From Candidatus Uhrbacteria bacterium (GTDB lineage: Bacteria; Patescibacteriota; Patescibacteriia; 2-12-FULL-60-25): a DNA stretch of 64,000 bases. Position 1 is the first letter of the stretch. Each line of letters starts with the position of its first letter. This document shows positions 15,399-19,695 of this stretch, one piece after another. A program made the translations under genes and the position numbers. The notes beneath the pieces were generated by a model. That model had not been told where the DNA came from and did no database searches. It saw only the letters and a list, made by a program, of their open reading frames with translations. Where the stretch lies: contig JAIOPK010000015.1 of the NCBI GenBank assembly GCA_021413945.1, positions 62,001-126,000 on the forward strand, in the 5' to 3' direction.

Positions 15399-17927
15399 TC
15401 AGGGAACCGGGCAGGTGTAGGCCGTGCCGAGCGTGCTCGAGCGGAAGGTGGGCAGAAGCCCACCCGAGCCCGGACACACATGGCCGGTCGAGAGCCGGTT
15501 CACGGCATCGACGCTGTAGGCGGTCACGCCCTGGGCGGATGCCAGGGTGTTCTGCGGACCGGGCCACGGGAGGCGAACGCCGCCCGAGCCGCCGCAGCGG
15601 AGTCCCGTCCGGTAGTAGCCGGTCGGATCCGTGGTGTTGGCCACGTCCATCGAGACGGTCATCACGCCGGGGTCGGCGGGAACGAAGCAGCCGTTCTGGT
15701 CGTAGAGACCCGGACTCCAGCCTGCGGCGCAGATGCCGAAGTTGGCGTTCAGGTAGGCCAGGTCGTAGGTCACCGAGACGGTCCCAGTGAAGCCCTGCGC
15801 GAGACGGATGTCCCGGCAGGCCGTTCGCTCGGCCGAGGCCGAACCGACCGGAGGCGGGGTGCCGGCATCGCTGCCGGAGGGACCCGCATCCGTTCCGGAC
15901 GGACCGGCGTCGGTTGCGGGCGTGCCCGCGTCGACCGGCGCAGGACCGGCGTCGACACCACCGCACGAGAGGAACTCGTTGTTGGCGCCGTCGCAGTCGT
16001 TGTCGAGCGCGTCGCAGATCTCGGTCGCGGGACCGACCGCGCCCGTGCAGGTTCCTGCGAAGGTACCGGCCGTGCAGGTCTCCGTTCCGTTCAAGCACAC
16101 CCCGACGCCCGGAAGACCGGTCGTGAAGGGATAGCAGGAGCGGGTGAAGACGCCGCCACCGGGCGGGTTGTCGATCGAGCCGTCGCAGTTGTCGTCGAGG
16201 CCGTTGCAGGTCTCGGCGACGGGTGCGGGCGGAGTGGTCGACGGAACGCAGCGGAAGTCGCTGCCCGTCATGCACATGTACGTACCGGCCGTGGCGCAAG
16301 CGCCGCGTCCGACCGTGCAGGCCATGCCGATGCGCGGATCACCGCCGCAGGTGGTGCAGGCGAGATCGCTCCCGCTGCAGTCCTGGTCGATGGTGTCGCC
16401 GCAGGTTTCCACAGTAGGACCGACCTCGCCCATGCAGGCGCTCCAGACACCGGCGCCGACGGCGTCGACACCGAGACAGGCGCTCGTGCCGGCGACGCAG
16501 ACACCGCGACCCGCGAGGGCCGGGCTGTTGGGAGGCGTCGTGCAGCTGCGAACGAGCATCTCGTCGATGCTTCCATCGCAGTCGTCGTCGATCGCGTTGC
16601 ACATCTCACTCACCGGACCGACGATCACTGCGTTGCAGCTGACGACGCCAGCCGCGCAGGTGTAGGTGCCGAAGGTGAGACAGGCTCCGATGCCGGCGGC
16701 GCAGACGTTGCCGACGCGCGGATCGGTGCCGCAGACCACGCAGGCATCGTTGATGCCGTTGCAGTCCTCATCGGAAGCGTTGCCGCAGACCTCGACGGTC
16801 GGCAGAACTTCTCCGATGCAGGCGCTGAATGCGCCGGCGGTGCAGGTGCGCGTTCCGGAGCGGCAGGTGCCGACGGAGGCGGAACCCGGACGACCCGAGT
16901 AGCAGCTCTCGACGTTGCCGTCGATCACGCCATCGCAGTCGTTGTCCAGGTTGTCACAGGCCTCGGGAGCGGGGGTACCGACGACGGCGCTGCAGGACAG
17001 CGTCGAGCCGGTGCAGCTCCAGGTGCCGGCGGCCATGCAGGCTCCGATGCCGGAGCTACAGGCCATGCCGACGCGGGGGTCGCGGCCGCACGAAGCGGAG
17101 AAGAGAAGTGCGCCGTCGCAATTCTCGTCGACCGCGTTGTCGGGGACCTCGGCCGTGGGCAGGATTTCTCCGGCACACGCGCTCCAGGTCATGGTCGCGG
17201 GGATGTAGCTCTGTGTACCGGGACGACAGACGCCGACGCCTGATGTTCCGGTAGCACCCGAGTAGCAGCCGCGCGTGATGTTGTCGTCGATCGCGCTGTT
17301 GCAGTCGTTGTCGATGCCATCGGGCACGATGCCCTCGGACGAGGGACTGCCGGCCAGTGCCGAGCAGACCTTGGTGTCCGTGGCGTTGCACATCCAGGTA
17401 CCGGTCGCTCTGCAAGCGCCGACGCCGACCGCACAGGCCACCGCTCCGACGACGTCGGGATCGGTGTTGCAGGCCGTCGACATGCCGCCGTCGGTCGGAG
17501 GACCGGCGTCGGGCGTGAAGGCCGGGCCACGCGGGTTGCACTCCATCCAGTTGCCCGAGATGTCGCACAGCATGGAGCCTGCGAGGAAGGCGGGACCGGC
17601 CGTCGTGCAGTCGCGACGAGCGCCGGGGGTGCATCCCATCCCCCCGTCGGACGGAGTGAAGGGCGGCAGCGGCGGCTCGGCGCAGGGTGCGATGGTGCAG
17701 TTCGACGCGATGTTGCTGATCGAGTCGCAGACCTGGTACGCGCAGATCGCGGGGTCGCCGGTGAGGCAGGCCACGCGGGCGCCGTCGGACGGAGTGCAGG
17801 CGCCCCCCGGGGTGAGGGGTGCCACGATGCTCGAGCTATCGAGCGAGGTGCATCCGGCGATGATGATGCCGGCCGCGAAGGCGACCAGCGAGACGAGACG
17901 ACTGAGAGACGGGGACAGACGGTACAT
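15399..17927 (-). CDS. MopE-like cysteine-rich repeat lipoprotein
   Basis: An 842-residue exported lipoprotein. The signal peptide ends in the lipobox IAGC (about residues 22-25). The body is a string of cysteine-rich units. Each contains a calcium/copper-loop phrase of the MopE type, for example CDNLDNDCDGVID, CNAIDDDCDGSID, CNGLDDNCDGSID and CDALDNDCDGANN, alternating with CGTDPRVG-type and GVCRPGT-type phrases. A Pro/Asp/Gly linker (about residues 680-720) leads to a C-terminal domain with a few cysteines. This repeat family (Cu-binding_MopE) is commonest in Myxococcota and related bacteria. GC-rich codon use, a solitary position and an own terminator separate it from its neighbours, suggesting transfer. 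ATG 17927 has a weak AAAGG site upstream. Confidence 0.85.
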   Translation of the reverse strand: MYRLSPSLSRLVSLVAFAAGIIIAGCTSLDSSSIVAPLTPGGACTPSDGARVACLTGDPAICAYQVCDSISNIASNCTIAPCAEPPLPPFTPSDGGMGCTPGARRDCTTAGPAFLAGSMLCDISGNWMECNPRGPAFTPDAGPPTDGGMSTACNTDPDVVGAVACAVGVGACRATGTWMCNATDTKVCSALAGSPSSEGIVPDGIDNDCNSAIDDNITRGCYSGATGTSGVGVCRPGTQSYIPATMTWSACAGEILPTAEVPDNAVDENCDGALLFSASCGRDPRVGMACSSGIGACMAAGTWSCTGSTLSCSAVVGTPAPEACDNLDNDCDGVIDGNVESCYSGRPGSASVGTCRSGTRTCTAGAFSACIGEVLPTVEVCGNASDEDCNGINDACVVCGTDPRVGNVCAAGIGACLTFGTYTCAAGVVSCNAVIVGPVSEMCNAIDDDCDGSIDEMLVRSCTTPPNSPALAGRGVCVAGTSACLGVDAVGAGVWSACMGEVGPTVETCGDTIDQDCSGSDLACTTCGGDPRIGMACTVGRGACATAGTYMCMTGSDFRCVPSTTPPAPVAETCNGLDDNCDGSIDNPPGGGVFTRSCYPFTTGLPGVGVCLNGTETCTAGTFAGTCTGAVGPATEICDALDNDCDGANNEFLSCGGVDAGPAPVDAGTPATDAGPSGTDAGPSGSDAGTPPPVGSASAERTACRDIRLAQGFTGTVSVTYDLAYLNANFGICAAGWSPGLYDQNGCFVPADPGVMTVSMDVANTTDPTGYYRTGLRCGGSGGVRLPWPGPQNTLASAQGVTAYSVDAVNRLSTGHVCPGSGGLLPTFRSSTLGTAYTCPVP

Positions 17928-18133: not shown

Positions 18134-18162
18134 TTGACAGGCTTTTGCTCATTCGCGAACAT
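18134..18162 (+). promoter_or_regulatory. Promoter candidate for the structured RNA
   Basis: TTGACA (18134-18139), a 17-base spacer, and GAACAT (18157-18162; three of six bases match the -10 consensus). Transcription would begin near 18169, exactly at the first hairpin of the candidate RNA. Confidence 0.4.
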
Positions 18163-18168
18163 GGTTAT

Positions 18169-18527
18169 GCGGGTAATGACGCCCGTGTTTCTACTGCTAC
18201 GGAGTACTTGCCATGCGTTCATACGTGGCCCCGGGCGCCGGGAGAGGCGTACCGTGAATCGCCAAGAGGTCTGGGTTCAGCACAGGACCCAGTGCCTCTC
18301 GGCACGTGCCTGGTATCTGAGACCTGCTGCCCATTGCGGATACGGCAGCAGAACGTAGGCTAGCCAAAACACGAGGCCTTAAGCCGGCCTATAACCCCAG
18401 AACCAGGCGCCTCCAAAGCTCTGTAACTCTGTGTCTGCGTCAGCAACTGGGACGCACTGCTTCCGTCGAATACCGCTATTCCGGACGCATTACCAAGCCC
18501 GCGACTCCTCCTCCGTGAGTCGCGGGC
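18169..18527 (+). ncRNA. Candidate structured non-coding RNA, about 360 nt
   Basis: The 710-base gap between the divergent MopE-like gene and the gene at 18639 has no convincing frame, but it is packed with complementary arms. Seen on the plus strand: a CGGG/CCCG hairpin at 18171-18185; GCCA...TGGC with inner CGT/ACG (18210-18229); CCCGG/CCGGG (18230-18242); GGCG/CGCC (18246-18263); AGGTCT (about 18267) pairing with AGACCT (about 18320) and enclosing two hairpins (18271-18292 and 18292-18305); an 8-base-pair CTGCTGCC/GGCAGCAG stem (18324-18351); AGGCC/GGCCT (18374-18391); GCGTC/GACGC (18437-18455); TCCG..AATA/TATT..CGGA (18461-18485). A strong terminator stem closes it at 18497-18527. I searched for tmRNA, RNase P, SRP and 6S signatures and found none. 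Transcription is inferred. Confidence 0.5.
18497..18527 (+). terminator. GC-rich hairpin terminator
   Basis: An 11-base-pair perfect stem (GCCCGCGACTC with GAGTCGCGGGC) and a 9-base loop, with only a weak U-run after it. It probably ends the candidate RNA. Confidence 0.6.
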
Positions 18528-18553: not shown

Positions 18554-18582
18554 TTGACAGATTCCCCTTTTTCTGGTTAGAT
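18554..18582 (+). promoter_or_regulatory. Promoter of the 64-aa protein gene
   Basis: TTGACA (18554-18559), a 17-base spacer, and TTAGAT (18577-18582), preceded by TGG like an extended -10. The start would be near 18589, giving a leader of about 50 bases. Confidence 0.5.
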
Positions 18583-18638: not shown

Positions 18639-18833
18639 ATGACCGAAGGTAGCACGGGGAAAACACAGAAGAGAGAGATCGCCGATCGGCAACTCATGCC
18701 GATCCCGATGTCCGCACCGCCCCGTGCCGTCCTGCCCGTCCCTCCCATCTACCGTTTTGGTTTTGGCGGAGGTCGTGCTCCCGAAGCTCCGTATCCCCTG
18801 TTCTTTCCCGGTGCCAACTGGAGTATCAACTGA
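18639..18833 (+). CDS. Small proline/glycine-rich protein, 64 aa, GC-rich class
   Basis: ATG 18639 is preceded by GGGAG with 8 bases of spacing, and a TTGACA promoter lies about 80 bases upstream. The stop is followed by a strong hairpin terminator. These three signals make this short frame credible. The product has a basic N-terminal third, then a run of prolines and aromatics (PPRAVLPVPPIYRFGFGGG) and ends in GANWSIN. It has no membrane segment or cysteine. The layout, with a short leader region followed by a compact Pro/Gly/aromatic tail, could suit a modified or secreted peptide, but no modification gene is adjacent. Function unknown. Confidence 0.6.
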   Translation: MTEGSTGKTQKREIADRQLMPIPMSAPPRAVLPVPPIYRFGFGGGRAPEAPYPLFFPGANWSIN

Positions 18834-18866: not shown

Positions 18867-18909
18867 GCCCCGGCTCGAGATTCACTCGACCCGGGGCATT
18901 CGTATTTTA
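18867..18909 (+). terminator. Terminator after the 64-aa gene
   Basis: A GCCCCGG/CCGGGGC stem with an inner CGAG/CTCG stem, followed by ATTCGTATTTT. It also lies at the convergent end of the TrmB-like gene. Confidence 0.75.
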
Positions 18910-19695
18910 TAACGTTTTATTTTTGCCCCAATCCGGCGGCGGCGTCCAAGCGACGGCACAGCTCCAAGCCATTTCATACAACGCCTTGATGACTTCCGCA
19001 ATATCTTTACTATCGATGATGACGCCCAAGCTCCGACCTCGATGCGAAAGGATGTAGACGCGCGAGCCTGAAATCGCCAAGTCGCCGGTAAATGGTAATT
19101 TTTTATAATCTATTTCACGTACATCGACGCCATTGATGTCAAAAAACGGTACCTGGAATCCCGGCTTCACGCTGATCAAGGCTCGACCATGAAGCTGCTT
19201 GGAACCCTCGATGCGATGTTCCGGCTCTACCTTCACCAAGTCCATCAACATTTCATCGATCGCATACAGTTCCCAAAGCGGTTCTTTGCTGTGCACGATT
19301 TCCTCTCGCATGCTCACGAGCCCTGCATCGCCTTCAAAAAAGCGGACGCGTGGTTTGTCTTCCACGGCGTTAAAAATTGCGAGGAGGCGCGGAAGCGTTT
19401 GCGAGAGACGGTCGCGCTTGGCTTCGAGGAGACCCATGTGCTCGCTTACGATCGCCAATAATTTTTCCGGACTCTCAGCGGCAAAGACGATTTTCTTTCC
19501 TTTCTCGTACGTCGATACGAGGCCGTGTTTTTTTAGACCCTCGACCATGACGTACGTGGTGGATCGGTTGACGCCGGCGCGCTTAGCGATGTCTTGGACG
19601 CTTGATGGGCCGATCTCGAGCATCGCCAAATAGACTTCCGCCTCTTTGTCCGAGAGACCAAGGTCGTTCAGGCCGGTTTTGATGTCTTCCAACAT
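18907..19695 (-). CDS. TrmB-family transcriptional regulator
   Basis: A 262-residue protein. The N-terminal 65 residues are a TrmB-type winged helix (LGLSDKEAEVYLAMLEIG, then QDIAKRAGVNRSTTYVMVEGLKKHGLV). A short coiled-coil linker (EHMGLLEAKRDRLSQTLPRL) follows. The C-terminal part resembles the TrmB effector or PLD-like domain (RVRFFEGDAGLVSMREEIV). TrmB proteins often sense sugars in archaea and CPR bacteria. It starts 12 bases after the stop of an upstream GT4 gene, so it may be co-transcribed with it. An upstream in-frame start overlapping that gene was rejected in favour of ATG 19695. Confidence 0.87.
   Translation of the reverse strand: MLEDIKTGLNDLGLSDKEAEVYLAMLEIGPSSVQDIAKRAGVNRSTTYVMVEGLKKHGLVSTYEKGKKIVFAAESPEKLLAIVSEHMGLLEAKRDRLSQTLPRLLAIFNAVEDKPRVRFFEGDAGLVSMREEIVHSKEPLWELYAIDEMLMDLVKVEPEHRIEGSKQLHGRALISVKPGFQVPFFDINGVDVREIDYKKLPFTGDLAISGSRVYILSHRGRSLGVIIDSKDIAEVIKALYEMAWSCAVAWTPPPDWGKNKTL

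Follow-up and report, generated by a model that had tools for sequence, protein, structure and literature searches.

Several pairs of a short peptide and a cytosolic regulator are known, among them shp-rgg, comS-comR and papR-plcR, in which the gene of a transcription regulator adjoins a tiny ORF whose C-terminal core is conserved. RAPP-like and SecM-type arrest peptides (PMC12992588) are likewise encoded by small ORFs, with a C-terminal Arg/Pro motif near the stop codon and a variable N-terminus that sometimes includes a TM segment. A third point of comparison is provided by the large structured bacterial non-coding RNAs described in Rfam, including tmRNA and RNase P. The locus reported here resembles the first two groups in these features of its coding sequence and the third in its strong intergenic fold of ~360 nt.

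The segment lies at 18169-18527 of the window, the 64,000-nt stretch analyzed here, which comes from a 1.05-Mb genome (G000) whose size and gene content point to Patescibacteria. It sits in a 0.7-kb gap, with the gene of a MopE-like Cys-rich protein (- strand) on one side and a small + strand ORF followed by a convergent TrmB gene on the other. An earlier note had described it as a structured RNA with its own promoter and terminator and with no convincing reading frame. We find instead that the + strand frame ending at the TAG at 18356-18358 is a conserved coding frame. This main ORF (18254-18358, +) comprises 34 codons from a probable GTG start, reads (M)NRQEVWVQHRTQCLSARAWYLRPAAHCGYGSRT, ends in RAWYLRPAAHCGYGSRT and belongs to a family recovered by profile searches.

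An alignment with the sister species (G001) keeps one frame and its TAG, as VQHRTQCLSARAWYLRPAAHCGYGSRT in G000 and VQKGSQCISAHTWFIRSVAHCGLGGRI in G001. Over the 34 codons the two ORFs, both among the more divergent members of the family, differ by 18 nonsynonymous versus 6 synonymous changes, and the replacements in the C-terminal half are mostly conservative. The syntenic place in G002, a genome of the same genus, holds two small ORFs with Shine-Dalgarno sequences, which end in GSQTVRSRRWFLRPVANCQDGL and GSQMRSTRRWFLRPATNCSSGE and show many synonymous differences between them. The codons of the C-terminal motif (W-Y-L-R-P-A-A-H-C-G-Y-G; 18310-18345, +) stand out by codon-position identity over 31 copies, with pairwise values of 0.70, 0.73 and 0.335 at positions 1, 2 and 3. 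Moreover, a leave-genus-out profile ranked the main ORF best of all window frames, at E 2e-6 against 1.8 for the runner-up, and placed the G001 and G002 ORFs ahead of everything else. Since third codon positions are free while the first and second are held, and since the leave-genus-out profile matches, these data indicate a protein-coding family. From sequence comparison, we consider it close to certain that the microprotein family exists and is coding.

The earlier reading as a purely non-coding RNA could draw on the strong fold and on an ORF that matches nothing in Pfam or NCBIfam. It is contradicted by the codon-position pattern, the leave-genus-out match and the distribution of the family, and the refutation test set for it beforehand, an alignment with conserved coding potential, came out positive. 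We therefore give this reading next to no credence.

To define the family, we used an initial profile of four ORFs (those of G000 and G001 and the two of G002), followed by extended profiles. The initial profile already found relatives through the family of the window's genome, mostly beside the same TrmB gene. Matches were obtained in 19 of 41 genomes of that family, 7 of 9 genomes of another (f9) and 27 of 381 class genomes, and a phylum sample of 380 genomes yielded three genomes of other families. A few matches fall in at least three families beyond the first two. Genomes missed by the profile can carry degenerate relatives in the same slot (SWGIRLKAYCCAGG, RFHERRRVALCDGGG, CWMWPPQANCGAGAIEN and ADPLEQSWGIRLKAYCCAGG, each followed by a stop). 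The family motif, RxWFLRPVAHCxxGG, stands at the extreme C-terminus, while the N-termini are fully variable. The invariant C and G of C-x-x-G and the preceding R-P-V/A-A-H/N are all found in the window (WYLRPAAHCGYG). After the invariant Cys, 19 of the 31 copies have exactly four residues left, and G000 and G001 have six, which places the motif at the very end of the protein here as well. Searches of Pfam, NCBIfam, PHROGs and the PDB sequences gave no match for the microprotein, and the motif strings were absent from the literature searched. In a genome of another family, a relative (L316; G442 C26:788-832, minus strand) carries the motif twice, as MPRKKRYMLRPVTPRKRYMLRPVTHCR with an in-frame TGA before a final G.

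The neighboring gene (18907-19695, -) lies 552 nt past the main-ORF stop in convergent orientation and encodes a TrmB-family regulator (Pfam TrmB, PF01978, E 2e-15). Its winged HTH (wHTH), matched by Pfam, is joined to a PLD-like C-terminal domain, which along with a sugar-binding domain is one of the two C-terminal domain types of the family. The AlphaFold model has a pLDDT of 90, and Foldseek returned TrmBL2 as the best PDB match (E 1e-13) and the PLD-family protein Nuc at 4e-6. The protein shares the wHTH, helical linker and PLD-like C-terminal domain with described TrmB/TrmBL regulators (TrmBL2, PDB 5bpd; TrmB, 2f5t), and differs from them in its linkage to a microprotein gene.

This linkage is usual, not universal. 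A TrmB gene lies downstream and convergent in 23 of the 31 copies (22 within 1.5 kb, and G001 at 2.0 kb), an adjacency that is partly inherited within families and amounts to few independent observations. The remaining eight copies have no TrmB gene beside them, one of these being at a contig end, and some TrmB genes, for example that of G032, have no clear peptide. Apart from TrmB, the flanking genes vary by family. Those of family f1 comprise genes of MopE-like and further exported-type proteins together with a glycosyltransferase and an MreB-like gene, and those of f9 encode Hsp20-like, VanW-like and methyltransferase-like proteins; all were named by sequence reading except for the MopE, glycosyltransferase and TrmB assignments. 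We regard a functional tie between the microprotein and the TrmB-type regulator as moderately supported, and infer its role on that footing. Overall, we lean towards an autonomous gene whose product, a small regulatory peptide, works together with the TrmB-family regulator and most likely acts through a fixed, free C-terminus.

Several further features of the surroundings were observed. Between the segment and the TrmB gene, a second small ORF (18639-18833, +) encodes a Pro-rich product of 64 aa, has a good promoter of its own (TTGACA-17-TTAGAT, 18554-18582), does not belong to the motif family and has no match in Pfam or NCBIfam. Its slot is highly variable, with two different larger ORFs in G001 and, in G002, another motif peptide under a similar promoter. 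At the TrmB locus of G004, the left flank (L208) holds a small motif-less ORF ending in APPIPFRAPSRLRTRWTLN, perhaps related to the 64-aa ORF, and the motif peptide of that genome lies ~48 kb from its TrmB slot. On the other side of the segment, the Cys-rich protein (15399-17926, -) contains several MopE-type metal-binding motifs, and the same place in G002 holds a tandem pair of such genes. Second microprotein copies were also seen just downstream of an integrase-like gene at two loci (L299, G015 C3:30000-46000; L300, G031 C1:26000-42000), where the cargo that follows differs: one has a nucleotidyltransferase resembling SMODS, the other exonuclease-like and SIR2-like genes. With genes named by sequence reading, this arrangement resembles that of a genomic island.

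The pairing of a short ORF that has a conserved C-terminal core with an adjoining regulator gene raises the question of whether the peptide is exported, processed and read by the TrmB-type regulator in a manner similar to quorum sensing. The N-terminus is hydrophobic in some copies (G016, G036 and the second copies of G038 and G039), which would suit such a signal, as would a Cys five residues from the C-terminus. On the other hand, most copies show no signal sequence by eye, no exporter or protease is common to the neighborhoods, and the core is conserved across families more than is usual for pheromones. The locus is set apart from shp-rgg, comS-comR and papR-plcR in that its regulator is of the TrmB type (wHTH plus PLD-like domain) and not of the RRNPP type, its core is kept across families, and an export signal is not visible in most members. 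Based on these comparisons, we judge a role as an exported signal very unlikely.

Upstream of the segment, the TTGACA box (18134-18139) on which the earlier note had based its promoter is present, followed after 17 nt by GAACAT (18157-18162), a poor -10 element with three of six consensus positions. The element (18134-18162, +) was read from the sequence and was not called by a consensus promoter scan. G001 has TTGACA-17-CAAAAT at the same place, with the 17-nt spacer kept. Between this element and the main ORF lies an upstream ORF of 14 codons (18213-18257, +), MRSYVAPGAGRGVP, with GGAG 8 nt before its ATG and a TGA that overlaps the GTG of the main ORF (GTGA). The corresponding ORF of G001, MYQIVALGAGTCAL, is identical in Shine-Dalgarno spacing, length and GTGA overlap, which suggests translational coupling to the main ORF. 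Its codons differ between G000 and G001 by 8 nonsynonymous and 0 synonymous changes and do not look constrained at the peptide level; on these counts we rejected the 14-aa frame as a conserved product and retained it as a possible coupling ORF. The start of the main ORF is probably the GTG at 18254, giving 34 aa, with an in-frame ATG at 18176 as an alternative that would give a 60-aa form.

A conserved C-terminal motif whose distance from the stop codon is almost constant, a free N-terminus that is hydrophobic in some copies, and an Arg-Pro within the motif might also mark a nascent chain that halts the ribosome immediately ahead of the stop codon and regulates in cis, as an arrest or leader peptide. 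Described arrest peptides, however, act on a downstream gene, whereas here many copies are followed by terminator-like stems and a convergent gene usually comes next. Compared with the RAPP-like and SecM-type peptides (PMC12992588), the microprotein lacks a RAPP/RGPP motif and a co-oriented target and usually adjoins a convergent regulator. We found no downstream target that shares a transcription unit with the microprotein, and an arrest role is disfavored because no co-oriented gene lies consistently downstream. We consider it unlikely.

We then return to the fold that had drawn attention to the segment. The strong folding reported earlier was borne out, with z scores of about -4 to -5: the + strand of 18169-18527 gave z -4.4 and was better than 100 of 100 dinucleotide shuffles, a repeat run gave z -5.1, and the opposite strand gave z -3.8. 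For comparison, 29 size-matched random windows had a mean z of -0.4, with -2.9 as the lowest. The G001 homologue reached z -5.6, and its ORF part alone z -5.9. Rfam searches at gathering and permissive thresholds returned nothing up to E 5 except one chance miRNA match, in agreement with the earlier failure to match tmRNA, RNase P, SRP or 6S RNA, and in this the segment differs from the large structured RNAs of Rfam. Both RNase P RNA and tmRNA were located elsewhere in the window's genome, and we therefore rejected the segment as a substitute for either.

The individual elements of the fold are largely shared with the sister species. G001 was the one true homologue found by BLASTN in relatives; matches in G105 and G005 lay in other contexts and were taken as chance. 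The alignment covers the whole unit, from the TTGACA box through the 5' hairpin, the central hairpins and the 3' hairpin to the terminal stem. The 5' hairpin, GCGGG-UAAUGA-CGCCCG (18169-18186, +), whose loop contains the alternative ATG, corresponds to GCGAG..CTCGC in G001, with one double change. The 8-bp stem of CTGCTGCC and GGCAGCAG noted earlier is present at 18324-18351 (+), enclosing CATTGCGGATAC; it lies inside the motif codons and keeps 8 of 8 pairs in G001, with one double and three single changes. Its loop, CATTGCGGAT, is invariant and overlies the H-C-G codons of the motif. A hairpin of the 3' UTR, GCTTCC..GAATACCGCTATTC..GGACGC (18459-18488, +), is also present in G001. By contrast, the long-range AGGTCT/AGACCT pairing is lost in G001, which has ATCACT/AGGTCT there. 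Of the proposed terminator, the 11-bp 3' stem (18497-18527, +) is present and keeps 11 of 11 pairs in G001, with one double change, but the window has no U-run after it (ATCCTAATAT) and a terminator scan makes no call; in G001, TTTTT follows the equivalent stem. Thus a discrete, folded transcription unit with a promoter-like box and a 3' stem is plausible, and the sister species keeps it, but the unit encodes a microprotein.

To examine the spread of the fold, we searched a covariance model (R1, 151 columns) over the family, the order and 381 class genomes. Only G000 and G001 matched; a single marginal class match (E 0.0099) was taken as chance. In G002, of the same genus, the model does not match the fold, though the peptide sits at the same place. 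A phage search and pattern scans of IMG/VR and GTDB gave, among the matches listed, only chance ones by the covariance model, which was applied to 81 of the resulting loci (L085-L165). Over the whole peptide family there is a weak structure excess up to the stop codon (mean z -1.3 versus -0.3 for controls, p 2e-4). This excess is mild and no common fold was seen, and we therefore rejected a general conserved RNA fold across the family. Structure conserved across relatives without a coding signal, as expected of a conserved non-coding RNA, was not what we found: the fold is confined to G000 and G001, and the coding signal is present.

A dual-function RNA, in which the fold would be the main product in G000 and G001, as a trans-acting or sponge RNA, with the peptide as a relic or secondary output, would account for the very strong fold of both species (z -5.1 and -5.6) and its extent over ORF, UTR and hairpins. 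The covariation check proposed earlier also speaks for it in part, as 52 of 54 tested pairs are still paired in G001, four of them with both sides changed, but with two sequences carrying the fold this support is thin. Against it, no further genome sampled from the family, order or class showed the fold, the peptide-bearing G002 included, and the conserved hairpin loop overlies the H-C-G codons. We regard a dual-function RNA as rather improbable. The detailed fold common to the two sister species is probably a secondary feature at the level of the mRNA and not the main product. In this lineage it may control how the peptide is translated, yet the family as a whole is not united by it.

Returning to a regulatory peptide that works with the TrmB-family regulator, the gene's own promoter would produce a transcript of ~360 nt, on which the upstream ORF, with its good Shine-Dalgarno sequence, would probably hand ribosomes through the GTGA overlap to the 34-codon ORF. 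The resulting microprotein, conserved only in its C-terminal motif (RxWFLRPVAHCxxGG-COOH), would act in trans as a partner, ligand or antagonist of the adjacent convergent wHTH regulator. The strong mRNA fold would probably add a layer of mRNA-level control, through translation or stability. Going further, the microprotein and the TrmB-type protein may tentatively be seen as a two-gene switch of Patescibacteria, with the peptide as ligand, possibly a secreted signal, and the TrmB-type protein as its receptor. To our knowledge, a peptide-controlled TrmB regulator would be the first of its kind.

These findings show that a short coding gene can lie concealed in a "non-coding" gap that folds strongly and better than all its shuffles. 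They add a previously unnamed and unannotated protein family in several families of Patescibacteria, bacteria with a little-known regulatory biology, and provide a specific, testable pair of peptide and TrmB regulator. If the two-gene switch proves true, it would be a candidate route of cell-cell or host-symbiont signaling in bacteria with reduced genomes, and in the window's genus the peptide mRNA would carry extra structural control.
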